Origin: Eubacteriales bacterium
GTDB taxonomy: Bacteria; Bacillota; Clostridia; Oscillospirales; Oscillospiraceae
Reading direction: 5' to 3'
Length of the DNA: 32,154 nucleotides
Assembly: GCA_030539285.1 (NCBI GenBank)
Contig: JAUNSH010000033.1
Location: forward strand, 1 to 32,154
This document shows, one piece after another, positions 4,955 to 31,658 of this stretch. Numbering within the stretch: position 1 is the stretch's first letter; each line of letters begins with the position of its first letter. A model generated the notes under the pieces. The model had not been told where the DNA came from, did not search any database, and was given only the letters and a program-made list of their open reading frames with translations. Both the position numbers and the translations under genes were made by a program.

Positions 4955-4965
4955 GGTATCCCCCC

Positions 4966-6393: not shown

Positions 6394-6406
6394 GGTCCTC
6401 TCCTCC

Positions 6407-7771: not shown

Positions 7772-7800
7772 ATTCTTCATCCTTTTGGAATGGTTTTGCC

Positions 7801-7866
7801 CGTAGGGGATGGCCTCCCGGACATCCCTTCCGCGTCAGCGGGGCGTCGGGGACGCCGCCCCCTACG
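7801..7866. repeat. Interspersed palindromic repeat between eutT and eutB
   Basis: Terminal inverted sequences CGTAGGGG (7801-7808) and CCCCTACG (7859-7866) enclose two smaller hairpins separated by CGCGTCAGC. The same plan (GTAGGGG ends, two internal hairpins, a CGCGTCAG core) recurs at 29582-29671. It looks like a genome-wide non-coding repeat or small MITE. Placed inside the eut operon, it adds a strong RNA hairpin between eutT and eutB. Confidence 0.7.
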
Positions 7867-7872
7867 GTTTCT

Positions 7873-8861: not shown

Positions 8862-8879
8862 TTTCTTCATCCTTTCCAA

Positions 8880-11736: not shown

Positions 11737-12811
11737 GGCCCGTCACCTCTTCCAAAATCCGCCGCACCAGAAAATCCTCCACTGCCATGGGATTGCTCTG
11801 ACAGCAGGGATCCGCCAGCACCGCCTTTACGATCTCATCCGCGTTCCGCCAGACGCTGCGGGGGTCAACTCCCGCCTGCACCAATGTCTCCGGCAGGTTC
11901 AGCTCCCGGCGCAGACGGATCAGGCCATTTTTCAGATTCCGCACCGCTATGGTGTCCACGCTGCCGCCCATGCCCGCCGCCCGGGCCAGTTCCGCGTACT
12001 TTTTTGATGCCACATGGGCATTGCAGCCGATGACCGAGGGCAGAATAATGGCGTTCAGCCGCCCGTGGGGTACATGGAACATCCCGCCCAAACTGTGAGA
12101 CATGGCGTGGCACAATCCCAGCCCGGCCTGGGTAAAGGCCATCCCCGCCATGGTAGACGCCAGATGCACCTTCAGGCGTACCGACGTATTTCCCGCATAG
12201 GAAGCCGGCAGCGCCGCAAAGGCACTGGAAAAAGCCTCCCGGGCATACAGATCCGAAATTGTCCCGGCCCCCCGGGCAACATAGCTTTCAGCAGCATGGG
12301 TCAGCACATCAAAGCCCGTGTCCGCGATCAGGCCCTTGGGCAGTTCTGTCAGCAGGTCGCTGTCCAGGATCGCCACGTCCGGGCGAATGCGCTTGTCCAC
12401 CAGCGGGTGCTTCACATGGTCATGGGTCAGGATCGCAAAATCCGTCACCTCGGAGCCGGAGCCGGAAGTGGTTGGAATCGCAACCATCTTATATTTGCCT
12501 TTTGCGAAAAACGCCATGGCTTTGGCGCAGTCCATGGCGCTGCCGCCGCCCAGCGCAATCAGAAGATCCGGGTCGAACGCCCGAAGCCGGGCTGTCCCTT
12601 CTGCCGCCAGCTCCACTGTGGGATCCGGCTGAACCTTGTCAAACACCTCCGATTCCTGACAGTTCGTCAGTTCTACGATGCGTTTTGCCGTTCCGTTTTT
12701 CGCAAAGAAAGGATCCGTCACCAGAAACAGCCGCTTTGCCCCCAGGTTGGACAGCGCACTGCAGGCCCCCGGCCCGGACAAAATCCTCGTCTTGCAGGAG
12801 AATTCCTCCAA
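11729..12811 (-). CDS. eutG: Iron-containing alcohol dehydrogenase EutG
   Basis: This 360-residue type III alcohol dehydrogenase would reduce acetaldehyde to ethanol and regenerate NAD+ for EutE. The nucleotide-binding GGGSAMDCAKA and PTTSGSGSEVT segments are present, and the metal ligands are visible in DVLTHAAES (Asp and His), HAMSHSLGG and HGRLNA. It is the first eut gene. No ATG lies in a good position; the frame opens right after an in-frame TGA, and the first usable codon is TTG 12811 behind a weak GGTGG. This gives MEEFSCKTRILSGPGA, which aligns with family starts. The poor initiation signal suggests regulated or modest EutG synthesis. The EutG name rests on operon context. Confidence 0.9.
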   Translation of the reverse strand: MEEFSCKTRILSGPGACSALSNLGAKRLFLVTDPFFAKNGTAKRIVELTNCQESEVFDKVQPDPTVELAAEGTARLRAFDPDLLIALGGGSAMDCAKAMAFFAKGKYKMVAIPTTSGSGSEVTDFAILTHDHVKHPLVDKRIRPDVAILDSDLLTELPKGLIADTGFDVLTHAAESYVARGAGTISDLYAREAFSSAFAALPASYAGNTSVRLKVHLASTMAGMAFTQAGLGLCHAMSHSLGGMFHVPHGRLNAIILPSVIGCNAHVASKKYAELARAAGMGGSVDTIAVRNLKNGLIRLRRELNLPETLVQAGVDPRSVWRNADEIVKAVLADPCCQSNPMAVEDFLVRRILEEVTGRV

Positions 12812-19880: not shown

Positions 19881-19955
19881 TTCCGGGAAAATTCGATTGA
19901 TTTCCATTTTGCATAAAAATCTTACAGAAAACAGCTGTCCCCTCCGCCCCCATTT

Positions 19956-20024
19956 TTCGACACAGTTCACCAAAAAAGTTACATTTTCTTACAATTCTAC
20001 CACAGATTGTCGATGTTTGACGAA
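19956..20024. promoter_or_regulatory. Spo0A-box-like sites upstream of spo0A
   Basis: Three matches to the Spo0A box core lie within 70 bases: TGTCGAA on the minus strand (19962-19956), TGTCGAT (20008-20014) and TGACGAA (20018-20024). The last two are 20-36 bases upstream of the -35 box. Autoregulation of spo0A by such boxes is established in Bacillus and common in Clostridia; here it is inferred from the sequence. Confidence 0.6.
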
Positions 20025-20043
20025 CGATTGTTGCGAATATCCC

Positions 20044-20072
20044 TTGCAAATCGAAACAAATCGTGGTATTCT
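20044..20072 (+). promoter_or_regulatory. spo0A promoter
   Basis: TTGCAA (20044-20049), 17-base spacer, TATTCT (20067-20072). A GCGAAT element just upstream resembles a sigma-H -10 box but lacks a matching AGGA -35, so I favour the sigma-A reading. Confidence 0.7.
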
Positions 20073-20136
20073 TTTGTTGTCGCACATGGCAGATACGCCG
20101 TGAACTGGGGAAATCTACATGACAGGAGAGGTATGT

Positions 20137-20916
20137 ATGGAACACACATCAACGGTATTTATCGCCGACAGCGCCGAGGACTTTTGTTCCGGTCTGACTG
20201 CTGCCCTGCAGCGCGCCGACGGCTTTCGTGTTTTGGGAACTGCCGGCGATGGGGAGCAGGCAATTCGCATGATCGAAGAAAAAAAGCCGGATATCCTGGT
20301 ACTCGACTTAATGCTGGCGAAAAAGGACGGGATCAGTGTCCTGAAATCCATTGCAAATATGGAGCACAAGCCAATCACATTAGCCACCTCCGCGTTTTTG
20401 ACGGAGTACGTTTCCACAGCGGCAGCAAACCTGGGCGTTCGCTATCTGATGCTGAAGCCCTGCGACATGGCCGCGCTGGTTGAGCGGCTTGAGGAGATCC
20501 GGGGCGGGGAGAGCCTGCGGTATCCTGTCCAGCGCCGCACTGACAAGGTCAGCATCGAGACCCTCGTGACCAATATTATCCACGAGATCGGCGTTCCCGC
20601 CCATATCAAGGGCTACCAGTATCTGCGGGAAGCCATCATCATTGCCGTCAACGACATGGATGTCATCAATGCCATCACCAAGGTGCTCTATCCGCAGGTA
20701 GCCAAGAATTTCGGCACCACGCCCAGCCGGGTAGAACGTGCCATCCGCCACGCCATCGAAGTCGCGTGGGACAGAGGGGACCTCGACACCCTGCAAAAGT
20801 TCTTCGGCTACACCGTGTCCAACACCAAGGGCAAGCCCACCAATTCCGAGTTCATCGCCCTGATTGCGGACAAGTTGCAACTCCAACTCAAGAGCGCCGA
20901 GGCGGCCCAGTTCTGA
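20137..20916 (+). CDS. spo0A: Sporulation master regulator Spo0A
   Basis: A 259-residue response regulator that, when phosphorylated, switches cells into sporulation. The receiver domain (residues 1-120) has the phospho-acceptor Asp57 in ILVLDLML and the conserved lysine in LKPCD. The C-terminal Spo0A domain contains the recognition helix region [21 protein letters not shown] and ends with the conserved [11 protein letters not shown]. One of the two acidic pocket residues near the N-terminus appears replaced by serine (ADSAED where Bacillus has ADDNRE). ATG 20137 follows AGGAGAGG by five bases. The last 23 codons lie inside a 280-bp repeat that bounds an integrated element, so the element restores the 3' end. 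Confidence 0.97.
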
Positions 20917-21127
20917 TTGTGGCGCAACGGGTTTCCGGCTTTTTCTTTTGGCGGGTCAAGCCTATGAAGGTTGGGAAAGCCCCAATAGAGGACAGCCGTT
21001 AAGCCTATCAACATTCTTTATCGCACCTATAAATACTCCTGCTTTATTGGGTGAAATATACCCCAATGAACAGGAGTATTTTTATGGCGATTTGTTTGGA
21101 TTTTGACTGGCAAACCAATGAATTTAT
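20848..21127. repeat. Left end direct repeat (attL-type), including the spo0A 3' end
   Basis: All 280 bases are identical to 29285-29564. The repeat begins in the last 23 codons of spo0A, covers the intergenic hairpin and ends 44 bases into the integrase gene. Immediately left of it the two spo0A copies differ at about 20 of 176 positions, so the recombination core probably lies near the left edge of the identical block. Confidence 0.9.
21031..21083 (+). promoter_or_regulatory. Long hairpin before the integrase gene; covers its ribosome-binding site
   Basis: Outer stem AATACTCCTG (21032-21041) with CAGGAGTATT (21071-21080), inner stem ATTGGG (21046-21051) with CCCAAT (21062-21067), then TTTTT. 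The 3' arm contains the AGGAG that serves ATG 21084. The structure can therefore terminate spo0A transcripts or, when transcription reads through, hide the integrase ribosome-binding site. An identical copy lies at 29468-29520. Confidence 0.75.
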
Positions 21128-22073
21128 GCTTTATTGCCGCACCACCCAATTAAGGGAAAAAACGATGCTTTCTTATGAACAAACCCTGCGATTATTTGAG
21201 AAATGGTGTAAAGAAGAACAGGGTATCAGCACCGTAGATAAGGTCAATGAGAATGTGATACGCAGATACATTTTTGACCTCCAAGAAAGAGGCAAATACA
21301 CCTTCTATTCCAACGATAAGCAAAAGGCAATCAACTACCCAGAACGGCGGAGGGACTTCCGCAAACCTGTCAGCACCATCACGATCAACAACTATATTCG
21401 CAATCTTCGGGTGTTCTTCAACTATCTGGAACGCAACTACATAATTAAGAAAAATCCGATGAAGCGGGTACGACAACTGAAATCCAACAGAGAACCGAAG
21501 GTGTATCTGACTGACGATGAACTGCGCAAGTTGCTGTCAAAGTTTGACCGTTCGTATTTCTCCGAACATCGGGATTATGTGATGATCCTCCTGATGCTCG
21601 ACAGCGGGATGCGGTTGGGAGAGTGTTCCACCCTTTTGGTGTCGGATTTGGAACTTTCCCGCAAGCGGATAAATCTGCGGGCGGAGGAAACCAAAGGGCG
21701 GAAAGAAAGAACTGTATTTTTCTCCCCCAAGACCGAAAAGGCTCTGCGGAGTTGGCTCCAATACAAAGACCGCTATGTGGAAAGTGATTATCTATTCCCT
21801 GTCAAAGAACACGGCGGTTCCATCGGTGTCGGTAATTTTGAAGGGAACTTCCGCAAGTACATTGAACGGGCGGGACTGAACGAACAATATACGCCCCATT
21901 GTCTGCGGAACAATTTTGCAAAAAGATGCCTGATGAATGGTATGGACATTTACACCCTCAGTAAGATTTTGGGCCATTCCAGCGTGACCGTCACGGAACA
22001 GGCTTATCTTGATATCAATGACGATGATATGAGCAAACGCTATCAGCATTACAGTCCCCTGAACGGTGTATAA
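21084..22073 (+). CDS. Tyrosine recombinase (integrase) of the spo0A element
   Basis: A 329-residue phage-integrase family protein that should catalyse integration and excision at the spo0A 3' end. The N-terminal SAM-like core-binding domain spans about residues 15-125. The catalytic set is complete: Arg177 in SGMRLGE, Lys204 in ETKGRKERT, His272 and Arg275 in PHCLRNNF, His298 in LGHSSV and the nucleophile Tyr308 in EQAYLDIN. ATG 21084 follows AGGAG by seven bases; ATG 21051 is in frame but lacks a site and lies inside the hairpin. It is on the same strand as spo0A with only 167 bases between, so spo0A read-through can transcribe it. Confidence 0.93.
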   Translation: MAICLDFDWQTNEFMLYCRTTQLREKTMLSYEQTLRLFEKWCKEEQGISTVDKVNENVIRRYIFDLQERGKYTFYSNDKQKAINYPERRRDFRKPVSTITINNYIRNLRVFFNYLERNYIIKKNPMKRVRQLKSNREPKVYLTDDELRKLLSKFDRSYFSEHRDYVMILLMLDSGMRLGECSTLLVSDLELSRKRINLRAEETKGRKERTVFFSPKTEKALRSWLQYKDRYVESDYLFPVKEHGGSIGVGNFEGNFRKYIERAGLNEQYTPHCLRNNFAKRCLMNGMDIYTLSKILGHSSVTVTEQAYLDINDDDMSKRYQHYSPLNGV

Positions 22074-22111
22074 GTTCGAACAAGTTGGTACATCTTTTTA
22101 CAAGATAGTAC

Positions 22112-22146
22112 AAGAGAGAGGAAGTTTGTACGACTTCCTCTCTCTT
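22112..22146. terminator. Bidirectional terminator between the integrase and WYL genes
   Basis: AAGAGAGAGGAAGT (22112-22125) pairs with 22133-22146 over 14 bp with a seven-base loop. T-rich sequence follows in plus orientation (TTTGTATCTGTT), while the minus direction has a shorter run. It separates convergent genes. Confidence 0.75.
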
Positions 22147-22154
22147 TGTATCTG

Positions 22155-23153
22155 TTAGTACATCTCGGCAATGCCCTTTACATACTCACTCATTTCTTCC
22201 ACCACTTCGGCGGGAGCCAGAATGCGGACGGCCTTACCCAAACCGCAAATCCATCCAAAGAATTGGGGACTGACTTCAATGTCCGTATGAATGGTAAAAT
22301 GCTTTTCATCATCGGGAATCATCACAATGTCCCGCCCGAAGCGGTCAATCACCACATTCGCCAAGTGATTGGAGAACCTGATCTTTACCTTCTGGACTTT
22401 GCCGGAAAACATAGAGAACATCCGCAGAGAACGCTCAGACAAATTCAGTTCCTTAAACTCTTTCTTTCCCTCCCGCTTCTGGGCTACAATGCTGATACCA
22501 TCCATCTTATCCACACGGAAATGCTTCATCTTCCCGCCCTCAAAAGCCAAAAGATAATAGTTATTATCGCTCCACAACAGGGCATAGGGGCTTGCGGTGT
22601 AGAGTTCGCCTTTTTTGTAAAATGCCTTTTGTTTTTTTGGGGTGAAATAGAAGTATTTGAAAGTGATCTGCCAGTCATTGGCGATAGCGGTGTGGAGATC
22701 GTCAAGATGGTAGAAAATGCTGTCATTCATACTGCGGACACGGTTGGGAACATAGCACCGCCGATCTAACAGCACCCGATCATAGCGGCTTGCTTTCGCT
22801 TTCAGTTTGTCGGTCAGGTTTTTTGCCTGTTTCTGGGTGATGAAGCGGGAGGACTGAATGCTGTCAATTAGAAGTTGGAGTTCCTGTGTGTCAAACTCCC
22901 GATCTACAATTCTCCATCCCCTTGTCCGCCCGTCATACTGGGTTTCATAGCCGTATTCGTCCAAAAGGTGAAGATCGGAACAGACGGTTTTCTGCTCCAC
23001 GGGGATTTTGTAGTAGTTGTCAAAGTGTTCGATAATTTCCTGAACCTTGACGGTATGGGTTTCGTCTGTGTTTTCCAGAAGATAGTCCAGAAGGTAGAGC
23101 AGTTTCAGCCGTTGATTCTGCGATCTGCCTTTGCCTTTTTCGCCGTTCGCCAT
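22155..23153 (-). CDS. WYL-domain transcriptional regulator
   Basis: A 332-residue DNA-binding protein. Residues 1-90 form a DeoR-like winged helix (RLKLLYLLDYLLENTDETHT through YGYETQYDGRTRGWRI), and a WYL ligand-sensing domain follows (DWQITFKYFYFTPKK, SPYALLWSDNNYYLLAF, KMKHFRVDKMDGI), with a WCX C-terminal domain ending in EMSEYVKGIAEMY. WYL regulators often control defence or mobile-element genes and may sense nucleic acid ligands (family knowledge). ATG 23153 follows GGAGGGG. It is transcribed from its own promoter, convergent with the integrase. Confidence 0.92.
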   Translation of the reverse strand: MANGEKGKGRSQNQRLKLLYLLDYLLENTDETHTVKVQEIIEHFDNYYKIPVEQKTVCSDLHLLDEYGYETQYDGRTRGWRIVDREFDTQELQLLIDSIQSSRFITQKQAKNLTDKLKAKASRYDRVLLDRRCYVPNRVRSMNDSIFYHLDDLHTAIANDWQITFKYFYFTPKKQKAFYKKGELYTASPYALLWSDNNYYLLAFEGGKMKHFRVDKMDGISIVAQKREGKKEFKELNLSERSLRMFSMFSGKVQKVKIRFSNHLANVVIDRFGRDIVMIPDDEKHFTIHTDIEVSPQFFGWICGLGKAVRILAPAEVVEEMSEYVKGIAEMY

Positions 23154-23190
23154 TGTAGCCCCTCCGTGGCGGGTTTTCTGTTAGTATAGC
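23154..23190 (-). promoter_or_regulatory. Probable extended -10 promoter of the WYL gene
   Basis: TGCTATACT (minus strand, TATACT at 23188-23183) has the TGn extension, which can compensate for the absence of a good -35 box. The leader is short and ends in GGAGGGGCTACAATG. The 15 bases GTAGCCCCTCCGTGG of this leader recur at 29076-29090. Confidence 0.5.
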
Positions 23191-23240
23191 ACATTGCACC
23201 AAAAGAAAAAAGGGCGGATTTCTCCGCCCCTGTTCAATAT

Positions 23241-24146
23241 TTACTTGTAGTTTGAAGCATTAATATCAATTCTGCAAGAGGTCTTTCCGTACGAAAGTTC
23301 TTTAATGGGAACAAATGTGATAGTAATGCAATCGCTCAGCACATAACCTTCGATAAGAACATCCTTGTTATTAAACTCGGAAATTGCAGCATCAATCATG
23401 TCATCGGTGATGGAGGAGTCTAACACTTTAACTGCTTCCCTGAACACCTCGTACATGGATTGTTTTTCTGAATCCTCTTGACCGCCATTGATTGTCAGGC
23501 AAAACGCTTCTGCTCCTGCATCGTTGGCGTTTATCATTTCGAGATATCTACCATTTGCGGAACCAAAGTATTTGGTTCTAATATTACCTTTAGAAATGTC
23601 TGTGATTTCAAAGGCAGACTGTGCATTGAACTCTGAGATGAACCTATTAACCACTTGGTCTTCTGCATAGGATAATACAACATCTTCTGTGGTGGTGTCA
23701 TTCGTAAATGTACTATCAGTCGGCTGCTCGGTAATGGTATTGTCTGTGGGCAGAGCGTCCGTGGTTTCTGTGATTCCTACGCTCTCGGTTTGGGATGGAA
23801 CATCAGTTTTGCTATTGCCAGACATACCAATGACAAAGAACAACAACCACGCTGCGGCAATGATGCCATATTTAACTGCGGGCTTCATGTTCTTCTTTCT
23901 TAACATCAGGATGGTAAGGGGAACAGGGAAAATGCAAATCCAACCGAGCACCCACAACCAAGTGTGCTTTTTGGAACCCTTGACTTGGCTGTTGGCTGTA
24001 CTCTGTGATTTGCCATTTTGCGGTTTCTCGGTTCCAACATAGTAGTTATTGGTAATATTGATTGTGGTCTTTTCCTTCGGCATTTCACTACCACAGTATT
24101 CGCAAAATTTTCCTTTTGCTTCTGCTCCGCAATTCGGACACTTCAT
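23241..24146 (-). CDS. Zinc-ribbon membrane protein with extracytoplasmic domain
   Basis: The 301-residue product starts with a zinc ribbon (CPNCG at residues 3-7, CEYCG at about 16-20), then an NITNNYYVG linker. Two hydrophobic segments follow (WLWVLGWICIFPVPLTILML and a second around residue 90, GIIAAAWLLFFVIGMSG). Next is a Thr/Ser/Asp-rich stalk and a globular domain of about 150 residues that would face outside. I do not recognise the outer domain. ATG 24146 is eight bases after GAGGTG, which I prefer over the upstream in-frame codon. It lies between the WYL regulator and the serine recombinase as a single gene. A sensory or surface-exclusion type role is conceivable but unproved. Confidence 0.75.
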   Translation of the reverse strand: MKCPNCGAEAKGKFCEYCGSEMPKEKTTINITNNYYVGTEKPQNGKSQSTANSQVKGSKKHTWLWVLGWICIFPVPLTILMLRKKNMKPAVKYGIIAAAWLLFFVIGMSGNSKTDVPSQTESVGITETTDALPTDNTITEQPTDSTFTNDTTTEDVVLSYAEDQVVNRFISEFNAQSAFEITDISKGNIRTKYFGSANGRYLEMINANDAGAEAFCLTINGGQEDSEKQSMYEVFREAVKVLDSSITDDMIDAAISEFNNKDVLIEGYVLSDCITITFVPIKELSYGKTSCRIDINASNYK

Positions 24147-24362
24147 TCTGGGACACCTCTGCTCTCTTTTTCTGTCAAATTGCAAGTCGAGTGCTTGCGT
24201 TTATAGTATAACAGATTCCTGTGTAAAAGGCTATACATTTTGAAAAATTGGATGGAAGTTGCTTGTGCTATATCAACTGTGCATGGTTTTGAATTGCCTG
24301 CTCATTTTTCTGCGGTTCAATGCTGACGTACCGCTGAGCCATCAGGGAAGAAATATGTTTTC
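24147..24362. other. Intergenic region, weak promoter and an open out-of-frame tail
   Basis: On the minus strand TATACT/TATAAA around 24200-24212 may be the -10 region for the zinc-ribbon gene; no convincing -35 is seen. From the recombinase end to TAG at 24270-24268 the next frame stays open for about 32 codons, containing MAQRYVSIEPQKNEQAIQ. It has no ribosome-binding site and may be a remnant. Confidence 0.4.
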
Positions 24363-24950
24363 CTATTTTTCCAAAAGCGAAAGGTATTTGTAGACCGTTG
24401 TCCTGCTCAAATCACAAACTCTTGCCAATTCTGAAACATTCAACTGTCCCTTTTTGTAAGCGGGGTAATGCCGAAGGAAGATTGCGGGAATATCGTCTGC
24501 GGTTATTTGCGGTCTGCCGATCTGCTTGCCCTTGGCCTTGGCGTTCGCTATACCAGACCGCACACGGGTTCGTATCATAGCAAGTTCCAACTGGCTGAAT
24601 ACGCCCGCCATCTGCAAGAAAGCCTCACTCATGGGGTCTGCTGTCCCTTGGCGGCAATCCAGCGTGATACTGCCCACAATCACCAGCCGCAAACGCTTTT
24701 CCCGAACGGTGTCAATGATAGCACAAAGTTGCTGGGTGCTTCTGGCAAGGCGTGGGACTTCCAAGGTTATGATGGTATCGCCCGCCTCTGCGGTGGCGAA
24801 CATGGCTTCCTGTTGGCTCTTGACCTTGGCATCCCCATGTTCATACTCCAAGAAAATCTCTCTTGCCCCCGCTGCTTTCAGTTCCCGCACTTGGCGGTCA
24901 ATATCCTGCTTCGTTTCGTTGGTGGAGCATCGTGCATAACCGTATTCCAT
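24363..24950 (-). CDS. Serine recombinase (resolvase/invertase family)
   Basis: This 195-residue protein has the resolvase catalytic domain with the nucleophile Ser9 in YGYARCSTNE, the conserved LEVPRLARS and the DCRQGTADPMSEAF segment, then the long E-helix QLELAMIRTRVRSGIANAKAKG. The C-terminus is a helix-turn-helix of Hin type (LNVSELARVCDLSRTTVYKYL). ATG 24950 follows GGAG by eight bases; an in-frame GTG at 24959 lies on the ribosome-binding site. It is the third gene of a unit driven from the operator region near 25700. It could resolve multimers or invert a segment; no crossover site is recognised. Confidence 0.92.
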   Translation of the reverse strand: MEYGYARCSTNETKQDIDRQVRELKAAGAREIFLEYEHGDAKVKSQQEAMFATAEAGDTIITLEVPRLARSTQQLCAIIDTVREKRLRLVIVGSITLDCRQGTADPMSEAFLQMAGVFSQLELAMIRTRVRSGIANAKAKGKQIGRPQITADDIPAIFLRHYPAYKKGQLNVSELARVCDLSRTTVYKYLSLLEK

Positions 24951-24978
24951 AATCTTCACTCCTTTTGGTGGCGGGGAG

Positions 24979-25278
24979 TTATCCCGCCTCGCCTGGGGAA
25001 TAGAACTGTCCTTTGTAGTCCCCTACTACATCCAATATCAGTCTGGCACCCAGCCGAAAGCCATAGATGAAATAGTCCTCATTTGCCAGCACGGTCATGT
25101 CCGCCCGCAGATTATCGATTGCCTCAACCTGCTTTCTGACTTCTGGTGAAATCGCCTCCATGAGCCTGTCCACTTCATCAGACAGTTTCTTGGCGGTTTC
25201 CTTGTATTCGCTTCCAGACCTGACAAAGCGTTCTGCGGGGGTGATGTTCCCCCGCCATAGTTCCTGCAATGCGTACAT
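24979..25278 (-). CDS. DUF6809-like small accessory protein
   Basis: A 99-residue soluble protein: MYALQELWRGNITPAERFVR, a central helical segment with heptad character (KKLSDEVDRLMEAISPEVRKQVEAIDNL), and a C-terminal DYFIYGFRLGARLILDVV. The pattern YGNI-P-ER followed by FIYGFRLG fits DUF6809 as I remember it, a small family common on clostridial mobile elements and without known function. AGGAGGG precedes ATG 25278. The gene starts 12 bases after the upstream gene's stop, so both should be one transcript with the serine recombinase. Confidence 0.65.
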   Translation of the reverse strand: MYALQELWRGNITPAERFVRSGSEYKETAKKLSDEVDRLMEAISPEVRKQVEAIDNLRADMTVLANEDYFIYGFRLGARLILDVVGDYKGQFYSPGEAG

Positions 25279-25290
25279 CCTTATCCCTCC

Positions 25291-25569
25291 TTACACGCTG
25301 ATGGTGAAGCGGCGGCTGGAAACCTGCTTGGTATAAGCCTTGTAGATTTCCGGCATAACCTTCTTGAAAGCGGTGCTGTCGAACCGCTGGGAGAGAACAG
25401 AAGTGTAGCGGACGATGTACTGTCCCGCAATCAGTTCTTCCACCTCTCTGGCTTCCATTTCCGCCTTGATGGAGTTGCGGATGGTGTCGGCTTCGGCTTT
25501 GATTTCCTCCATCATCGCCTCGTATTTGTTGAGAAGTTCAATCTTGGCAAGCAGTTCGATTTTAGACAT
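25291..25569 (-). CDS. Small accessory protein with N-terminal coiled coil
   Basis: A 92-residue protein of unknown function. The first 50 residues are charged and heptad-like (IELLNKYEAMMEEIKAEADT). The second half is a compact motif, QRFDSTAFKKVMPEIYKAYT followed by RRFTIS, which I associate with small proteins on phages and mobile elements without being able to name the family. ATG 25569 is preceded by AAAGGAGAT. It is first in the minus-strand operon with the DUF6809-like and serine recombinase genes, downstream of a promoter overlapped by a repressor operator. Confidence 0.6.
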   Translation of the reverse strand: MSKIELLAKIELLNKYEAMMEEIKAEADTIRNSIKAEMEAREVEELIAGQYIVRYTSVLSQRFDSTAFKKVMPEIYKAYTKQVSSRRFTISV

Positions 25570-25686
25570 TGTGGTTATCTCCTTTATTTTTGTTGTTGCC
25601 GTCTCTCCGTGCTGTCGAGGCTCCTTTGTGTTTGAAAGGACTTACAACAGGCCTTGTTGAAATTGGCTGTCCTTGATTACGAGAAT

Positions 25687-25715
25687 ATTGTACCATAAAA
25701 GGTACGAAATGTCTA
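25687..25715 (-). promoter_or_regulatory. Minus-strand promoter of the accessory-recombinase operon
   Basis: Minus-strand TAGACA (25715-25710), 17-base spacer, TACAAT (25692-25687). The GTACC-N6-GGTAC operator at 25690-25705 covers the spacer and part of the -10 box, so a bound repressor would silence it. The leader to ATG 25569 is about 110 bases. Confidence 0.75.
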
Positions 25716-25812
25716 TTGACGATTGTACCAAATTTGGTACATACTATTTGTATACTTTTTGGTACAATTCCTGTTGACAAACCACTTGAAATACTGTATA
25801 CTTTATGGTACA
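25690..25812. promoter_or_regulatory. Array of GTACC/GGTAC operators for the XRE repressor
   Basis: Two full sites and two half-sites lie in 123 bases: GTACCATAAAAGGTAC (25690-25705), the perfect 18-bp palindrome TGTACCAAATTTGGTACA (25724-25741), and GGTACA at 25761-25766 and 25807-25812. They overlap both divergent promoters. The arrangement is that of a Cro/CI-type control region with an autoregulated repressor. Confidence 0.8.
25774..25802 (+). promoter_or_regulatory. Promoter of the XRE repressor gene
   Basis: TTGACA (25774-25779), 17-base spacer, TATACT (25797-25802). A GGTACA half-site overlaps the presumed start of transcription. Confidence 0.85.
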
Positions 25813-25826
25813 AAGGAGGAGATACT

Positions 25827-26048
25827 ATGCCTGTATCCTACGCCAAACTCTTTGAGCGAATGGCCCAAAAGGGTATCAAAAAAATTGACCTTCGCAATAC
25901 CTACAAAATTAACCCCAAAACTGTTGACAGTCTGGTGAATAACCGTAGCGTGACCGTTGATACCATTATCCAACTGTGTGAAATTCTTGACTGCCAGCCG
26001 GGGGATATTATGGAGTATGTCAAGGAGCCTGTGGCGGGCGTTCAGTAA
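25827..26048 (+). CDS. XRE/Cro-type repressor
   Basis: A 73-residue helix-turn-helix protein: MPVSYAKLFERMAQKGIKKIDL, recognition region INPKTVDSLVNNRSVTVDTI, then LCEILDCQPGDIMEYV, the classic Cro/C1 (HTH_26-like) pattern. It consists of little more than the DNA-binding domain, so it should bind as a dimer and respond to no large ligand domain. ATG 25827 follows AAAGGAGG by seven bases. It is divergent from the accessory-recombinase operon; the palindromes between them are its likely targets. Confidence 0.92.
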   Translation: MPVSYAKLFERMAQKGIKKIDLRNTYKINPKTVDSLVNNRSVTVDTIIQLCEILDCQPGDIMEYVKEPVAGVQ

Positions 26049-26287
26049 AACAGTTGGTTTCGTGAACGCTTTTTCCGCAGTTCCAAAAGGCAGAAAAGCG
26101 GGGGAAAATGCCCCGATTCTGTTCACGGTATGGCAAGCCCCTTTTCGTGGACGCTACCCCCCCGCACCCATTTCGGGAAAATCCTCGGCGTTTTGCTTTT
26201 TTCCCTTTTGGCGTGGGCAACCGCCCTACCAAGAGTGGATTTGATTTCCAAAGACGGTCTTCATGGCTGTGTGCGGGACGGCAAAAA
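26049..26287. other. Non-coding stretch after the XRE gene
   Basis: About 240 bases with no credible gene. It contains alternating short G-runs and C-runs (GCGGGGG, TACCCCCCCG) and A/T-tracts, and shares no motif I can name. It could hold an origin, a transfer site or a small RNA, but nothing in it proves any of these. Confidence 0.3.
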
Positions 26288-26311
26288 ATACCGTCACACG
26301 GGAGTGACGGC
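26284..26311 (-). terminator. Minus-strand terminator
   Basis: CCGTCAC (26291-26297) pairs with GTGACGG (26304-26310); on the minus strand TATTTTTTG follows the stem. It would end read-through from the small-protein operon at 26383-26729. Confidence 0.75.
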
Positions 26312-26319
26312 AGAAAACG

Positions 26320-26380
26320 AAAAAAACGGCAAGCCGCCCAAAGCCCCGTCTGTGGGTTCTCTGAAACGGCTTGCCGCTTT
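26320..26380. terminator. Bidirectional hairpin terminator
   Basis: CGGCAAGCCG (26327-26336) pairs with CGGCTTGCCG (26367-26376). On the minus strand seven T residues follow, on the plus strand CTTTTCTT. It lies directly after the stop codon of the 52-residue protein gene, with a 30-base loop containing a CCCA/TGGG inner stem. Confidence 0.75.
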
Positions 26381-26382
26381 TC

Positions 26383-26541
26383 TTATAACTTGATTTTGAT
26401 TTCTTTGTCCCAGTCCTTCATAAGGTCATCCACCGCCGCATCCAAAGCGGTTTTCATAGACTTTTCCATAATTCCGAAAATCTCCTTTTCCAAAATGGAC
26501 TGCTTCTTTTTCTTCTTCTTTTCTTCTTCCTTCTGGCTCAT
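26383..26541 (-). CDS. 52-residue lysine-rich small protein
   Basis: The frame starts at ATG 26541, overlapping the stop of the upstream gene as ATGA, so it should be translated by coupling. The protein has a highly charged start (MSQKEEEK and a run of lysines), a helical centre (EKEIFGIMEKSMKTALDAAV) and the tail DWDKEIKIKL. No family is recognised. Coding is supported by the overlap, by the terminator immediately after its stop and by the neighbouring gene's similar size. Confidence 0.6.
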   Translation of the reverse strand: MSQKEEEKKKKKKQSILEKEIFGIMEKSMKTALDAAVDDLMKDWDKEIKIKL

Positions 26542-26729
26542 TTTTTGAGTTTCACCTCACTTTTTACCTTGATAGAATCGAACCCCTCGTTCAGGGCTTC
26601 TCTTTCTTCCTGCTCCCTATCCATCTTTCTGTGAAAAGCATACAGGATTTCCTCTGGGGTGTAGCCATCTAAGTACATCCAGTCGTAGTAGTCAGGCACA
26701 TTTTTGAAATGGTTCTCAATTGGGCTCAT
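26538..26729 (-). CDS. 63-residue conserved mobile-element small protein
   Basis: Starting at ATG 26729, eight bases after GGAG, the protein reads MSPIENHFKNVPDYYDWMYL, then DGYTPEEILYAFHRKMDREQ and a charged tail. The DGYTPEEILYA-type helix is familiar to me from small hypothetical proteins of clostridial elements. Function unknown. It is first of a two-gene unit with the 52-residue protein. Upstream lies an AT-rich inverted repeat CTTTTAAT/ATTAAAAG (26770-26791). Confidence 0.65.
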   Translation of the reverse strand: MSPIENHFKNVPDYYDWMYLDGYTPEEILYAFHRKMDREQEEREALNEGFDSIKVKSEVKLKK

Positions 26730-26800
26730 TGCAATGTCTCCTTTGTTTTTCTTTCTGCTATCTATGAAACTTTTAATAGTTAAATTAAAAGGAAAAGGCC

Positions 26801-26861
26801 AATTAAGTCGGGCACTTAACACTAATAATATACAAGTTAATGTTAAATGCCTGACTTAATT
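26801..26861. repeat. 25-bp inverted repeat pair downstream of the putative DNA-binding gene
   Basis: Arms 26801-26825 and 26837-26861 are complementary with three mismatches; their shared motif is TTAAGTC-GGCA-TTAACA-TAA. The right arm overlaps the stop codon of the 215-residue protein gene. A related pair lies upstream of that gene (27529-27584), giving four copies of the motif. Confidence 0.75.
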
Positions 26862-27507
26862 AGCCCTCAAATTCACTCTCAATGGAGTGCTGGATGAGTG
26901 AAAGCATATATTCAATTTTTTCGTTGTATATGCCGTTGATTTCAGGTATGGGCTGTTTCCGTGCAACCCCGCCGTGTTCTGCCAGCATATTGAAAATCGC
27001 CTCGTAGCAGTTCAGACCGCTTTCAATGTCGCTCCAATAGTTGTGCCAAGCCTCCACATACTCTGAGTGGTCGCATAATCGCTGTTCATCCTTATGGGCA
27101 AAGTAGTAGATGAAGATGCTTGTATTGCGGCAAATCAGATTATTGGCTTTCAATCTTTCGGTATAGGTGGCAATGGTTTGTCGGGAAATATCCTGTCCCA
27201 TCTTCCTCATACGATTTTCCTTTATCTCGTCAGGCATTGCCATAAAGACTTCATCCTCGAAGAAGTGATAGTAGAAGTTCCGCAGTTTGATGAAGTCTGT
27301 ACCGCCGTCAAACCCCAATTCTGTGATTGCGAACACCTTGAAAGGGTCTGCCATTGCCTTGATGGTATAGACCGCCCTTTCACCACGCCCGTGGACTTCA
27401 AAGGTAATCCCATAACGTTGCAATTTGCGGTCAATGCCCTGTTTACTTCTGGTTCCCAACATCTGGGTCAGTTCAGGCTTAGAATACACACGGCCAATTT
27501 CTAACAT
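26860..27507 (-). CDS. Putative winged-helix DNA-binding protein, possible replication or control protein
   Basis: This 215-residue protein has no family I can name. The N-terminus (MLEIGRVYSKPELTQMLGTR, then SKQGIDRKLQRYGI) looks like a helix-turn-helix. A second one is suggested by ISRQTIATYTERLKANNLIC, as in winged-helix initiator proteins. The rest is helical, with aromatic-rich FYYHFFEDEVFMAMP. ATG 27507 follows AAAGGA by eight bases. Inverted repeats with a common motif flank the gene on both sides, which suggests that its product binds them, as an autoregulator or as an origin-binding protein. Both alternatives are inference. Confidence 0.6.
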   Translation of the reverse strand: MLEIGRVYSKPELTQMLGTRSKQGIDRKLQRYGITFEVHGRGERAVYTIKAMADPFKVFAITELGFDGGTDFIKLRNFYYHFFEDEVFMAMPDEIKENRMRKMGQDISRQTIATYTERLKANNLICRNTSIFIYYFAHKDEQRLCDHSEYVEAWHNYWSDIESGLNCYEAIFNMLAEHGGVARKQPIPEINGIYNEKIEYMLSLIQHSIESEFEG

Positions 27508-27528
27508 TTTCGTAGTCCTTTCTTCACA

Positions 27529-27584
27529 TTAAGTCATCAATTTAACACTAATATAAATATTATTACTGTTAAGTGAATGACTAA
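27529..27584. repeat. Inverted repeat pair upstream of the putative DNA-binding gene
   Basis: TTAAGTCATCAATTTAACAC (27529-27548) continues into CTAATA, and the complementary arm lies at 27560-27584 with several mismatches. The motif TTAAGTC-CA-TTAACA matches the pair at 26801-26861. It lies immediately upstream of the gene's ribosome-binding site, where a promoter is expected. Confidence 0.65.
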
Positions 27585-27587
27585 AAT

Positions 27588-28034
27588 TTAGCCTGCTTCT
27601 GCCAGTTCTTCGTTTTCCTCTGCGTTGGGAACCTCAACAGGCTCCACAGTCCGCAGTTTGCCGTTGACGAAATTGGGAATGTCGTTGTAGTTAGGGAACT
27701 GCTTGACAAACCACGCCTTGACATAGGGGTAGCCTCTGCCCGCACTCTGTACCTTTTGGAACAGGTCAAGCAGTTTGTCGGCGTTCTCGTGGAGGCGGAT
27801 GTACTTCTCCATCCGCTCATAGGTCAGTCCCTTGGCGGGGTTGGCAGTCTTGGGGGAGCGGTGGGTTTTGCGAACAATCCGCAGATTGGGGAAATCCTTC
27901 TTCAGGCGGGTCAGGATTTTGTATTCCTCGGTAGTGGGGTCGTATGCATTGTCTGCGAAGTCCGCAGTCATCGTCAGGGTCATCTTGGTGAAATCCACAC
28001 GGTAGTTCAGTTCTCTTTTACTAATCTTTGCCAT
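27588..28034 (-). CDS. Accessory protein, paralog 2 of a tandem pair
   Basis: A 148-residue soluble protein of unknown function. It starts MAKISKRELNYRVDFTKMTL, continues through GLTYERMEKYIRLHENADKL and the strongly conserved VKAWFVKQFPNYNDIPNF near residue 110, and ends in an acidic tail. It aligns over most of its length with the next gene upstream. I prefer ATG 28034 (AAAGGA ten bases upstream) over the TTG at 28043. Two divergent copies kept side by side suggest partner subunits or different targets. Confidence 0.65.
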   Translation of the reverse strand: MAKISKRELNYRVDFTKMTLTMTADFADNAYDPTTEEYKILTRLKKDFPNLRIVRKTHRSPKTANPAKGLTYERMEKYIRLHENADKLLDLFQKVQSAGRGYPYVKAWFVKQFPNYNDIPNFVNGKLRTVEPVEVPNAEENEELAEAG

Positions 28035-28068
28035 TTCAATCAATTCCTTTCTTGTACTCTTGGTTGGA

Positions 28069-28485
28069 TTAGCCTGCGATCCGCAGATCGTCGGTTTCGG
28101 GCTTCTGAGAGGTTGCTACATCAGCAAAATCAACATCCTGATAGTTGGGGTAGTTCTTCAGGAACCAAGCCTTGACCTTGCCGTAGTAGCCAGGCATCTT
28201 CTTGTAGAACTTCTTGGCTTCCTCGAACTCTGCGACAGCGACTTCATCCTTGTAATTCTTGATGTAGTCAGTCATCCACTCAATAGTCAGGCCGCCGTGG
28301 GTCTCCTTGTCGGCGGTGATGACTGCGGTACGCATCGTGATGGTGAGTTCAGGGAAATTCTTGTGGAGTTTTGCCAGTTCACGGAACTCGGAGGTGGCGG
28401 GGTTCTTTGCTCTCTGGGCGAAAGCCTTGGTCAGGGTGATGGTGTTCTCAGCGAAGTTGATGGAATAGCCAGTAGTCTTTTTCAT
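28069..28485 (-). CDS. Accessory protein, paralog 1 of a tandem pair
   Basis: A 138-residue relative of the protein at 27588-28034. Shared blocks are the start (YSINFAENTITLTKAFA against YRVDFTKMTLTMTADFA), the middle (GLTIEWMTDYIKNY) and VKAWFLKNYPNYQDVDF near residue 105. Secondary structure appears mixed: an N-terminal beta-hairpin region, then helices. No membrane segment, no cysteine motif and no named family. ATG 28485 follows AAAGGA by six bases. It is first in a minus-strand unit that may include the paralog and the 215-residue protein gene. Confidence 0.65.
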   Translation of the reverse strand: MKKTTGYSINFAENTITLTKAFAQRAKNPATSEFRELAKLHKNFPELTITMRTAVITADKETHGGLTIEWMTDYIKNYKDEVAVAEFEEAKKFYKKMPGYYGKVKAWFLKNYPNYQDVDFADVATSQKPETDDLRIAG

Positions 28486-28590
28486 GGTAAATCCTTTCTT
28501 TGTTGCCTCTTGGCAACTGCGTTTTGTCTTGGGATCGCTACCCTTTAATTTAGTTTTGAGAGGTTTTTGTTTCTTATCTCTCTCAATCTT

Positions 28591-28638
28591 TGTACCCTAA
28601 TTATACAGAAAGTGGTATCCAATTCTTTGGATACCACT
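28591..28638 (-). promoter_or_regulatory. Promoter and palindrome upstream of the paralog pair
   Basis: Minus-strand TATAAT (28605-28600) is a perfect -10 box without a good -35. A 12-bp perfect inverted repeat, AGTGGTATCCAA (28611-28622) with TTGGATACCACT (28627-28638), occupies the -35 position, and GGTACA (minus, 28596-28591) lies at the start point. This looks like a promoter under protein control. Confidence 0.6.
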
Positions 28639-29105
28639 CTTTTGGAAAGGAAATTTTTGAAAAGATTTTGGGGGCTTTTCTCACGCTGACTTGTAGCCTC
28701 TTGTACCTATCACTTAACAGGTCGTAGGAACACGAAGGAACTTGTATGATCTTGTGCTTTTGGCTTACAGAACCACGAACCGCACCTTTGGGAAAAAAAC
28801 TGTGGCGGATGCCCGATCCTTTAGCGAACTCTTAAACCGAAAAAACACAGAAAAGTATGTAAAACTGCAAAAGGCAAAGTGAAGTCATCCTTTTTGCAGT
28901 CCAAAAGCACAAAAAACAGAGCAAAAAATTTTCTAAAATGTTCATTGGGTTCACGCTTGACTACGCTCTTGGATTTCGCTATTATATTGTCAAACCCTGT
29001 GAAGCAGTAGCAAACAGGGCGATAAAGAAAGCAATCAATCGTTGGCGATCACGCTCTCTTTTTGATGGCTCTTGGTAGCCCCTCCGTGGCCCGTCAGGGA
29101 CACGA
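28639..29105. other. Gene-poor right end of the element
   Basis: No convincing gene. Visible signals: CTTGTA copies at 28690, 28700 and 28741 with CTTGTG at 28751; a hairpin ACTGCAAAAGG / CCTTTTTGCAGT (28865-28902) followed on the minus strand by TTTTAC; and a plus-strand promoter-like TTGACT-17-TATTAT (28957-28985) running toward the right repeat. A 46-codon frame at 28938-29078 is too weak to call. Confidence 0.45.
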
Positions 29106-29353
29106 ACGCCATCACCAAGGTGCTCTACCCGGAGGTGGCCAAGAACTTCGGCACCACGCCCAGCAGAGTAGAGCGGGCCATCCGCCATGCCATTGAAGTC
29201 GCCTGGGACCGGGGCGACCTGGATACCCTGCAAAGGTTCTTTGGCTACACCGTTTCCAACACCAAGGGCAAGCCCACCAATTCGGAGTTCATCGCCCTGA
29301 TTGCGGACAAGTTGCAACTCCAACTCAAGAGCGCCGAGGCGGCCCAGTTCTGA
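29106..29353 (+). pseudogene. Truncated spo0A 3' fragment at the right end
   Basis: It encodes the last ~82 residues of Spo0A, from [15 protein letters not shown] to the stop, with no receiver domain. The first 176 bases (29109-29284) differ from spo0A at about 20 positions, nearly all synonymous; only Gln to Glu and Lys to Arg change the protein. From 29285 on it is identical to the intact gene. The frame has stayed open, which suggests recent arrival from a related host, carried in the element's attachment region. Confidence 0.9.
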
Positions 29354-29564
29354 TTGTGGCGCAACGGGTTTCCGGCTTTTTCTTTTGGCGGGTCAAGCCT
29401 ATGAAGGTTGGGAAAGCCCCAATAGAGGACAGCCGTTAAGCCTATCAACATTCTTTATCGCACCTATAAATACTCCTGCTTTATTGGGTGAAATATACCC
29501 CAATGAACAGGAGTATTTTTATGGCGATTTGTTTGGATTTTGACTGGCAAACCAATGAATTTAT
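29285..29564. repeat. Right end direct repeat (attR-type)
   Basis: Perfect copy of 20848-21127. It ends inside the integrase reading frame, after which the sequence becomes unrelated (…AATTTAT then ATGTAATAC). No further spo0A-like sequence follows, so the original right junction with the host may have been lost. Confidence 0.9.
29521..29564 (+). pseudogene. Integrase gene 5' remnant
   Basis: The first 44 bases of an integrase gene identical to 21084-21127 (MAICLDFDWQTNEF), then cut off by foreign sequence. It shows that a second left end of the same or a sister element once stood here. Confidence 0.85.
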
Positions 29565-29581
29565 ATGTAATACTATTTGCT

Positions 29582-29671
29582 GTAGGGGCGGGTCACTGAC
29601 CCGCCCGACCGCGTCAGCCGTATCCTGACGTTGCCGCTTCGCGGACGGGAGGGTCAATGACCCTCCCCTAC
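29582..29671. repeat. Interspersed palindromic repeat, second copy
   Basis: Ends GTAGGGG and CCCCTAC enclose hairpins GCGGGTCACTGACCCGC and AGGGTCAATGACCCT and a CGCGTCAG core. It shares the plan of the repeat at 7801-7866 and abuts the truncated element end by 17 bases. Confidence 0.75.
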
Positions 29672-29725
29672 CGTCACCAATCGAATCCGGTGGAAGGTTT
29701 TTACCAGATACCCTAATATCAGCAA

Positions 29726-29761
29726 TACGGCGCCCGGGCACTCCCGGACGCCGTACTTTTT
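29726..29761 (+). terminator. GC-rich hairpin with T-tract
   Basis: TACGGCGCCCGGG (29726-29738) pairs with 29743-29755 with one mismatch, followed by CTTTTT on the plus strand. It may be the original spo0A terminator displaced by the element. On the minus strand it follows the lipoprotein stop but lacks a U-tract. Confidence 0.65.
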
Positions 29762-31658
29762 ATCGGAGAGATTCCAGATAATTGCCGCGCCGCAGCTGCG
29801 CGGGGGCGCATTTGCGGCAGTAATAGTCCTCCACCAGTCCGCCGGAGGCCTCTTCCGGGTCACCGCAGCGGGAGCAGGCAGGAAGCCGGGTGATCTTATC
29901 GTCAAAGATCCAGAAGCCGGAACCGGCGCTGGTAATGCTGGTCCATGTATGCTCGTCAAGGGCATGGTTGCTGACCCTGCGGTAATTGTAGATATTGGAA
30001 TCCCGCACCCGGACATTGCCGTCCTCCGTGATCTCCTGAATCACGATGTAGTGGCCGCCGCTGGTCCAGTATCCCTTGTGCTGGACAGAAATGACCACAT
30101 GGCCGTCCTCCAGCCCCCGCCAGGCAGTCGTCGGCTCATAGGTCTGCTCGATCAGGTAGAAGCCCATGGCCGGGGATTCCTTGAAGTAGATCATCCCATC
30201 AGTGCCGTTGCGGTGGCTGTAGTTGCCGTAGCGCCGGCACATCTCCGGCGGGGTCAGCAGCTCGTCTGCCAGATAGGAGGCCACCATGGCCATGGAGGTA
30301 ATGCCACAGCCGTTGGTGCGGATGGGCCAGCCGCCGTACATGGTGGTAGGATAATCCTGCTGCAAATACAGAGGAATTTCCGGGAACCGCTCGTGGGCAA
30401 TGTCCGGATACAATAGCTCGTCAGAGGAAACCAGAGCTTCCGCTTCCGGCAGCACGATATCGCTGTAAGTGACCTCCATAGGATAGGCTTCCTTCGCTTC
30501 CCGGATCAGCGCAAGCTGCGCATCCTGCTGAGCAATTTCCGCTTGTTCCACCTGGGAAACGGCTTCCTTTCCGGAGAAATAGAGAATGTGCACGCCATCA
30601 CCGCTGACGATCTGCGTCGTGTCCCCCGGCTGGCGCTCCGGAGCGAAACACCACTCCCCGATTTCCTCAGGCAGCTGATCTTTCAGAACCCGTAGGTAGG
30701 AGCCGCCGTCCACCGCGGAGGCGGTGTCCTCGGAGTACCAGTGGGCCAGATCCGCAAAGACACTTTCCCGCTGTTTTTCCTGACCGGTCAGAGACTTCGT
30801 ACGGGCAGCAGCCTTTTCCTGAAAGGCCGTCAGGGCTTCCTCAGCAGAGGTTCCCTCCGTTTTCAGCAGAATATGCCTAAAGTTGACATAATATTCCCCG
30901 CTAATTTCCTCCTCCGTCTCTTCCTGTGTCAGGTCGTAGGTCAGCTGGGTAAAGTACATGTACGCCCGATTCAGCTCCTCCGCCATCTGGGTCAGGCTCT
31001 GGGTATCCGTTCCAAAGGCCTGCCGTGCCAACGCCGCAGCGTCCGCGCAGCCTTTCCCCTGGGCCAGGGTGTTCAAGGTGTCGTCAAGACCGTCCAGATA
31101 AGCCTGGTGCATGCTGTTGGGCGAATAATAGGGGTCGTAGCCGTACAGATACTTAGTCGCCGGCATTCCATCCATGTACTCCTCGTAAAGATAGTCAGCA
31201 GGCTGGTAAGCCTCCTCCGTCCCCAGCGGGACGTTCAGGCTCTGCTCGTTCAGCGCCGCCGCCGTGTGCCAGGCATTCAGTGCCTGCCGCAGAAAATACT
31301 GCTGCCAGCTGGCGACGGTATCATCCACGCCGCAGCTCTGCACGTCCAACGGTACGTCATAATCCAGATCGTCACACTCACCGGACTGGCGGTACTGAGC
31401 TGCCGCCGCCCAGTACCAGGCGGCCAGCTGAGCGTTGGTCAGCGTCCGGTCACCCACCACAGCAATGACTGTCTGTTCATTTCCCTGTCCTGTGTAGCTG
31501 CCCTTGCAGGTCACATCATTCGGGTCCCCGTCCGGCGCAGCCGTCCAGGCAGGCACCGTTTCCGTCGGAACCGTAGATTCCTCCATCGGTGTCTTTGCTG
31601 CTTTCCCGCAGCCGCATAACAGCAGCGCTGCCAGCAGCGCCGCGCAAATTTTTCTCAC
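29760..31658 (-). CDS. Lipoprotein with parvulin, C39-like peptidase and zinc-ribbon parts
   Basis: A 632-residue exported protein. Residues 1-17 form a lipoprotein signal (AALLAALLLCGC, Cys17 lipidated). Residues ~55-250 are helical with a SurA/PrsA-like start (VIAVVGDRTLTNAQL). Residues ~259-366 are a PPIC rotamase (FRHILLKTEG to GDGVHILYFSG). Residues ~425-575 form a C39-type papain-like domain with Cys451 in RTNGCGITS, His536 in GGHYIVI and Asp553 in VRDSN. The C-terminus has a CxxC...CxxC zinc ribbon (595-617). I chose GTG 31658 because GGGAGG lies seven bases upstream; ATG 31673 overlaps that site. This would be a cell-surface folding and proteolysis protein. The combination is unusual. 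Confidence 0.85.
   Translation of the reverse strand: MRKICAALLAALLLCGCGKAAKTPMEESTVPTETVPAWTAAPDGDPNDVTCKGSYTGQGNEQTVIAVVGDRTLTNAQLAAWYWAAAAQYRQSGECDDLDYDVPLDVQSCGVDDTVASWQQYFLRQALNAWHTAAALNEQSLNVPLGTEEAYQPADYLYEEYMDGMPATKYLYGYDPYYSPNSMHQAYLDGLDDTLNTLAQGKGCADAAALARQAFGTDTQSLTQMAEELNRAYMYFTQLTYDLTQEETEEEISGEYYVNFRHILLKTEGTSAEEALTAFQEKAAARTKSLTGQEKQRESVFADLAHWYSEDTASAVDGGSYLRVLKDQLPEEIGEWCFAPERQPGDTTQIVSGDGVHILYFSGKEAVSQVEQAEIAQQDAQLALIREAKEAYPMEVTYSDIVLPEAEALVSSDELLYPDIAHERFPEIPLYLQQDYPTTMYGGWPIRTNGCGITSMAMVASYLADELLTPPEMCRRYGNYSHRNGTDGMIYFKESPAMGFYLIEQTYEPTTAWRGLEDGHVVISVQHKGYWTSGGHYIVIQEITEDGNVRVRDSNIYNYRRVSNHALDEHTWTSITSAGSGFWIFDDKITRLPACSRCGDPEEASGGLVEDYYCRKCAPAQLRRGNYLESLR

Follow-up and report, generated by a model that had tools for sequence, protein, structure and literature searches.

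A probable integrative element that uses the sporulation gene spo0A as its target in Clostridia

A direct repeat of the spo0A 3' end flanks an integrase-bearing island

The window analyzed here, the whole 32,154-bp stretch of contig JAUNSH010000033.1 from an Oscillospiraceae bacterium, carries an intact spo0A, the sporulation master regulator gene that decides on spore formation, followed by a tyrosine recombinase (integrase) gene; farther downstream, the spo0A 3' end occurs a second time. The two copies form a direct repeat of 460 bp (20668-21127 and 29105-29564; offset, 8437), by far the longest in the region from 19900 to 30000, where the runner-up measures 26 bp. All 21 mismatches lie in the first 180 bp, between 20670 and 20847; 19 are synonymous, and the remaining two change residues (Q193E and K227R). 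From 20848 to 21127 the copies are identical (280/280), and identity ends at 21128. Realignment of the copies confirmed the figures of the original prediction (about 89% identity over 176 bp and then 100% over 280 bp). The identical block spans the spo0A stop codon (20916), the intergenic region, and the first 44 bp of the integrase gene (ATG at 21084), such that the right copy consists of a spo0A end and the first 15 integrase codons. A second spo0A fragment starting from the same codon was found in seven further genomes of the genus, six of which hold both copies on the contig and one of which (G124, locus L050) holds the right copy only. We read the window as containing an 8,437-bp site-specific integrative element, located between cores at 20671-20678 and 29108-29115 and of a kind used repeatedly at spo0A, and assign this reading a probability of roughly 0.83. 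Two further spo0A-like genes (L003 and L004) are present on other contigs of the window's genome.

Both borders share an 8-bp core within spo0A codons 185 to 187

The genus sample comprised 136 genomes, one per species and the window's own included. The stretch from spo0A to the integrase was matched in 130 of these, most matches ending near the end of spo0A; the region was compared in 120 genomes, with search-match loci used for four more. Both copies were comparable in seven genomes (the window's, G088, G090, G057, G043, G046, and G089), and four loci with shorter second fragments and other start positions (L044, L051, L054, and L055) were excluded from the core comparison. The right copy begins at codon 184 in all seven comparable elements and likewise, by eye, in G124, which taken alone shows only that a border of the attP type is shared. 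When left and right copies were compared within each genome, 20671-20678 (GCCATCAC) was the only run of at least six identical positions common to all seven elements, and G057 carries a variant core (GCGATTAC) on both of its sides. Direct repeats with a common 8-bp core were in this way found at both borders of 7/7 elements of the genus.

The right border was also compared with that of G090, a different species carrying a near-identical element. Passing from element to host, mismatches jump from 2/555 to 38/230 within 29105-29116. From the shared core and this right-side switch, we conclude at the level of sequence that the exchange point lies in codons 185 to 187 and not at 20847. Changepoints were also sought in 39 close genome pairs (5' distance of <0.12); the breaks were scattered, with only some near the core, and were not used as proof.

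An integrase family is consistently found behind spo0A

Within the genus, the integrase was recovered at an E value of 1e-40 or better in 8 of the 136 genomes and adjoins a Spo0A_C gene in each. Wider searches took in the family (400 genomes), the order (394), and the phylum (398), and further loci came from a named genome collection (32) and from viral contigs (1). Pooling gave 48 loci, of which 39 were distinct and assessable after removal of five second copies, one nonmember (L201, 28%), and three loci at contig edges (L179, L194, and L199); L198 (25%) is not a family member either, and the second-copy pair L162/L173 was assumed from identical scores to be the same locus. Spo0A_C codons lie directly upstream of the integrase in 39/39 of these loci, so that other elements with this integrase do flank spo0A, a check that the original prediction had proposed. 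The script assigned 37, and two were assigned by hand: L195, scored negative because its integrase is frameshifted, has spo0A and the first integrase part adjacent, and in L166/L175 a truncated spo0A tail precedes the integrase (by eye; E value, 0.003). The 39 loci include a stub (L197), a broken locus (L202), and several near copies of one another. The integrase is codirectional with spo0A and starts 138 to 245 bp behind its end in the measured loci (379 bp in the broken L202).

The hosts of the family include Clostridium acidisoli DSM 12555, Clostridium sp. strains DSM 17811 and KNHs214, a Vallitalea assembly, and Oscillospiraceae; in C. acidisoli, the right border did not appear within the 10 kb retrieved. 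At L162/L173, a branch of the integrase family follows a paralog with the Spo0A_C domain. The 35 family members among 48 recombinases placed in a tree cluster together (support, 100/97), with long outgroup branches flagged by the tool, and spo0A was found in the 1.5-kb flanks of 0/28 other recombinase loci. For loci from outside the genus, the right fragment begins at codon 182 (L170), 208, 211, 215-216, or 221-222, the start in L190 not being placeable. Searches of plasmids and phages returned only integrase relatives of <30% identity, the closest among 50,697 phage records reaching at most 28.1%.

Empty sites and probable decayed relatives accompany the intact elements

Empty sites, which the original prediction had suggested looking for, were found in two near relatives, G123 (whose spo0A 5' part is the closest to that of the window) and G121. 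In both, spo0A is followed directly by the convergent gene that lies downstream of the element in the window, and a model search for the hairpin plus integrase start revealed no footprint in either. The 39/39 loci represent independent insertions at the same target and, together with these empty sites, bear out the proposal that the 3' part of spo0A serves an integrative element as its site and that the gene stays whole. In G088, the DNA flanking the right copy is similar to that at the empty site of G121. Codons 184 to 265 of G121 (L149) differ from those of G088 (L036) at 39/246 positions for the right copy and at 29 for the left, compared to just 12 differences in the 300 bp upstream; such divergence beside closely related upstream DNA indicates that spo0A ends get exchanged. 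The G121-versus-G088 pattern looks as though an empty site had received a different spo0A end.

The footprint model (threshold, 38 bits), applied to 125 genomes (126 loci), detected footprints in 21 genomes, 17 of which had served to build it. The four outside the model-building set are G090, G096, G019, and G028, the last of which (38 bits, directly behind the stop codon) is doubtful. An integrase aligned over at least 180 amino acids is retained in seven of the footprint genomes, the window's included. Integrase stubs stand at three right borders, those of G043, G124, and the window, and in the window this tail was most probably left behind by an earlier element.

In the empty sites L147, L065, and L150, native spo0A ends are followed by hairpins like AAACACGCCTG...CAGGCGTGTTTT, which by eye resemble the hairpin of the element; the element may have captured a spo0A terminator.

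Candidate arm sites and a hairpin precede the integrase

Upstream of the integrase, 31 loci together contain 57 repeats of the type RCCWATRAACA, compared to 4.1 expected, an excess that is inflated because the motif was chosen by eye from the same sequences; at least two are present in 20 loci and none in eight. An inverted copy lies 140 to 167 bp before the right junction in 7/7 genus elements, and we read these repeats as candidate integrase arm sites. The right-arm pattern was not found in viral contigs.

The 81 nucleotides ending at the integrase start fold with a z score of -2.2 or lower in 34/36 loci (exceptions, L169 and L173), and at least three Shine-Dalgarno bases are paired in 33/36 (not in L169 or L173; none was recognized in L175). 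For 25 distinct pairs of hairpin arms, binding to the own arm averaged -12.9 kcal/mol, compared to -6.9 kcal/mol for swapped arms; own arms beat the median swap in 25/25 cases and were among the best 5% in 19. Between 20700 and 21300, a promoter scan gave one promoter-like site, located inside the integrase gene and at chance level, and Rfam returned nothing at gathering scores. Judging from these folds, the hairpin likely masks the integrase ribosome-binding site; a role as terminator is only possible.

Mosaic left ends and other observations complicate a simple insertion model

Several observations weigh against the interpretation given above. Neither a circular form nor a within-species pair was seen. 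The switch at the core appears in only one of three pairs, since both pairs with G088 place the right changepoint at 28811 (28787-29053); this switch is farther left because the right arm of G088 itself differs, the islands being mosaic. RNAalifold run on MAFFT alignment A1 missed the hairpin because several alignment rows were off by one base, and single folds and arm swaps were therefore used instead. A terminator scan of 20700-21300 gave no terminator-like site (0.9 in shuffles). Among the ten island proteins scanned (Pfam, PHROGs, and NCBIfam; small open reading frames and the origin of transfer, oriT, lay outside the scan), no relaxase or conjugation genes of the kind that define integrative and conjugative or integrative and mobilizable elements were found. 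The original prediction had named two situations that would speak against it. An island away from spo0A was not encountered, and a right-hand fragment without an element literally occurs in G045 and G083, where a shortened second fragment is present and no integrase was detected beside spo0A. We read both as probable decayed elements, because G083 still has a window-like resolvase beside its second fragment and because stubs elsewhere show intermediate stages.

A further complication concerns the left end. If elements carried their spo0A end faithfully, near-identical ones should have the same end. On the left side, however, the window and G090 differ at 120/971 positions up to about 21090 and then at 0/611, and the switch in the other two pairs lies at 20996-21105 and 20998-21031. 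The left segment was thus not coinherited with the island body, and neither copy of the spo0A end clearly tracks host relationships. The proposal that the element brings its own spo0A end therefore stands only in part, near-identical elements in three species having three different ends. Fewer differences separate the left ends than the right ends in G043/G046 (30 versus 56), window/G090 (31 versus 39), and G088/G090 (35 versus 38), and window/G088 shows the reverse (left, 37; right, 33). An attempt to assign the 3' ends to host or element by distance was uninformative, left and right ends following the hosts about equally.

Islands are mosaic in other parts too. The islands of the window and G090 are 0 to 1% different over most of their length, with blocks of up to 16%, compared to 7 to 10% upstream and 10 to 28% downstream for coding host DNA, a disparity that points to recent horizontal exchange of the island. 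In our reading, tandem accretion followed by collapse through homologous recombination near the integrase start would leave old bodies carrying new left ends; the pattern of 88% and then 100% identity in the window would reflect the same collapse within one genome.

Alternative explanations of the repeat

The main alternative to such a collapse is gene conversion or template switching, with the left side as donor of the right tail (280 identical bp and the integrase stub). Perfect identity over 280 bp within one genome, beside spo0A ends that differ, would suit copying, and members of the family do recombine. However, stubs often follow spo0A where no left donor is present, two more right borders (G043 and G124) have stubs, and the copied stretch would terminate in nonhomologous DNA. 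We consider copying unlikely, though worth keeping in mind, and prefer decay of an earlier or tandem element.

A different question is whether the element is developmentally coupled, such that spo0A transcription or Spo0A itself drives the integrase and excision at sporulation. The codirectional integrase, 138 to 245 bp behind the spo0A end in the measured loci, would fit this idea. In contrast, the hairpin pairs with the integrase ribosome-binding site, and the motif TTCGACA, which we take to be the 0A-box core, occurs four times compared to 3.9 expected, a chance level, with none before the integrase. Moreover, the exchanged end alters just two residues here. Coupling is accordingly regarded as improbable.

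The original prediction placed the site-specific exchange at the step at 20847, where identity changes sharply from 88% to 100% within the coding sequence. This was rejected on the core comparison and the right-border switch against G090, which together place the core at 20671-20678 and 29108-29115. The other six elements are also without such an identical block near codon 243; they show 23 to 51 mismatches per 246 positions between left and right copies and no second common run of six. An exchange at 20847 is, in our estimation, very improbable, and the step itself would follow from shuffling of left ends. That the repeat is a misassembly or plain segmental duplication, as might be suspected of an exact 280-bp repeat difficult for short reads in a draft genome (98 contigs; 84% complete and 2.6% contaminated), is hardly credible, because the same arrangement recurs, in sequence that has diverged, in the assemblies of seven more members of the genus and of additional Clostridia.

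Proposed route of insertion and replacement

The tyrosine recombinase most likely recombines a core within the Ala-Ile-Thr codons (185 to 187) of spo0A, in the DNA-binding domain. Its partner would be the same core in a circular form, situated between the right arm and a spo0A 3' end that is followed by the arm repeats and the integrase gene. Integration would sever the last codons of the host gene and supply replacements; because these are in frame, Spo0A would stay whole, and the displaced end would become the right border. By pairing with the integrase ribosome-binding site, the hairpin should limit integrase synthesis from transcripts reading through from spo0A. Older elements would decay to a spo0A end, the hairpin, and an integrase stub, with new insertions at the same core, and the right copy in the window would be such a decayed relic. 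Homologous recombination among family members would shuffle left ends.

More tentatively, and at somewhat less than even odds, the loci may represent a Clostridia-wide integrase family specialized on the Spo0A DNA-binding domain, with subfamilies at about codons 182-187, 208, 211, 215-216, and 221-222 and one branch at the paralog. Repeated insertion, tandem accretion, and collapse would then keep replacing the effector half, spo0A would be a host-element mosaic, and the hairpin at the end of the spo0A transcript would restrain the integrase.

Relation to known systems

Among the titles and abstract openings listed by searches of open-licence literature, none presents spo0A as an integration target, in agreement with the original prediction, to which no described element with this target was known. 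Excerpts of a review on integrative elements (PMC5704250) describe insertion, decay with retention of att sites, and new insertion at an att site, a route that the stubs and relics match. Like those integrative and mobilizable elements, which insert at gene ends and accrete in tandem, the spo0A elements combine a tyrosine integrase, a conserved gene end, decay, and reinsertion. Unlike them, they target spo0A (a word absent from that paper) and exchange a long coding end, and none of the ten scanned proteins of the island was recognized as a relaxase.

Sporulation gene-intervening elements are known from skin in sigK, SPbeta in spsM, gin in gerE, and yin in yabG (PMC10747680, PMC5595907, PMC5025042, and PMC4191935). 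These too are site-specific elements in a sporulation gene, and gin is likewise without phage genes. However, they split a gene that is restored only when they leave, and the recombinases described in PMC10747680 and PMC5595907 are serine enzymes, whereas spo0A here stays whole and the recombinase is of the tyrosine type. Spo0A_C domains (PF08769) are reported to be enriched on mobile elements of gut Firmicutes (excerpt of PMC6907783). Both that report and the present data find Spo0A C-terminal sequence on mobile elements; the excerpt places it among sporulation genes carried by the elements, whereas here spo0A ends stand at the borders. Such border-borne ends may explain part of the enrichment.

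Integrative islands with spo0A as a consistently used target are thus a real class of which no description was found in the literature covered. That an element inserts at a gene end and repairs the gene is a known mode; what is new is the target, how long a coding end is exchanged, and a dedicated group of integrases with its hairpin. An integrase family that addresses spo0A is in effect restricted to bacteria that have spo0A, and every insertion gives the master regulator another DNA-binding half. Caution is advisable with trees built on spo0A ends. The class also offers a defined attachment site in Clostridia, which are hard to engineer, and allows a test of whether mobile DNA is coupled to the sporulation decision or shielded from it.

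Gene content of the element and its surroundings

The features are listed in Table 1. The integrase gene is intact, with GMRLGE, HCLRNN, and LGHSS...AYLD present, which we take to be its catalytic motifs. No virion or packaging genes of a prophage or phage satellite were found among the ten island proteins (PHROGs), and the target gene is not split as in skin-type elements, the spo0A reading frame being intact (265 amino acids).

Table 1. Features of the putative spo0A element and its borders
Feature	Position	Strand	Basis
spo0A, intact, 265 amino acids; Asn184 onwards lies right of left border	20119..20916 (start 20119 or 20137)	+	PF00072, PF08769
Left core GCCATCAC, inside codons 185-187	20671..20678	+	Sole run of at least 6 identical left/right in all seven genus elements
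Putative replacement spo0A 3' end, element side of core	20679..20916	+	Follows from core; differs between near-identical elements
RCCWATRAACA-type repeats (starts 20961, 21004, 21026, 21063), candidate integrase arm sites	20961..21070	+	Motif count
Hairpin, 3' arm containing integrase Shine-Dalgarno sequence (AGGAG)	21031..21081	+	z -6.3
Tyrosine recombinase (integrase)	21084..22073	+	PF00589 (E 2.7e-34), phrog_1
WYL/WCX regulator-like protein	22155..23153	-	PF13280, PF25583
Protein without annotated function	23241..24146	-	No Pfam/NCBIfam match; weak phrog_2546
Serine resolvase/invertase-like protein	24363..24959	-	PF00239, phrog_125
DUF6809 protein	24979..25278	-	PF20648
Small protein, no function assigned	25291..25569	-	phrog_6244
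Cro/C1-type helix-turn-helix protein	25827..26048	+	PF13443
Protein without family match (Pfam, PHROGs, NCBIfam); homologs in relatives	26860..27507	-	
Tandem pair of related small proteins, adjoining right end	27588..28485	-	Present in compared genus elements; no PHROGs/NCBIfam match
Inverted arm-repeat copy, 164 bp before right junction	28941..28948	-	Motif search
Right core	29108..29115	+	Shared core and right-side switch versus G090
Putative displaced spo0A 3' end	29116..29353	+	Repeat comparison, codon-184 start
Intergenic region, hairpin, and 44 bp of integrase gene; probable relic of a second left end	29354..29564	+	280/280 identity; model R1 match at 29463

The tandem pair of small-protein genes is retained even in the shortened island of G057. 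A predicted structure for the tandem small protein (mean predicted local distance difference test [pLDDT], 72; predicted template modeling score [pTM], 0.42) had no PDB match below an E value of 0.7. An identical 16-mer, GTAGCCCCTCCGTGGC, occurs at the start of the WYL gene (23155-23170) and in the right arm (29075-29090), and could be a shared binding site or chance. In the islands of the relatives L170 (11110-17661) and L190 (12884-19469), some of the proteins selected match models of the defense systems TmtA, GajB-like, MzaA, and PDC-S51. Elsewhere in the window, the gene run at 4349-12811 resembles what, from the translations, we take to be an ethanolamine utilization cluster. By eye, palindromic intergenic repeats of the form GTAGGGG... 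are present at 29585-29670, between the relic and the downstream gene, and are also found near spo0A in L038, L039, L041, and L045.

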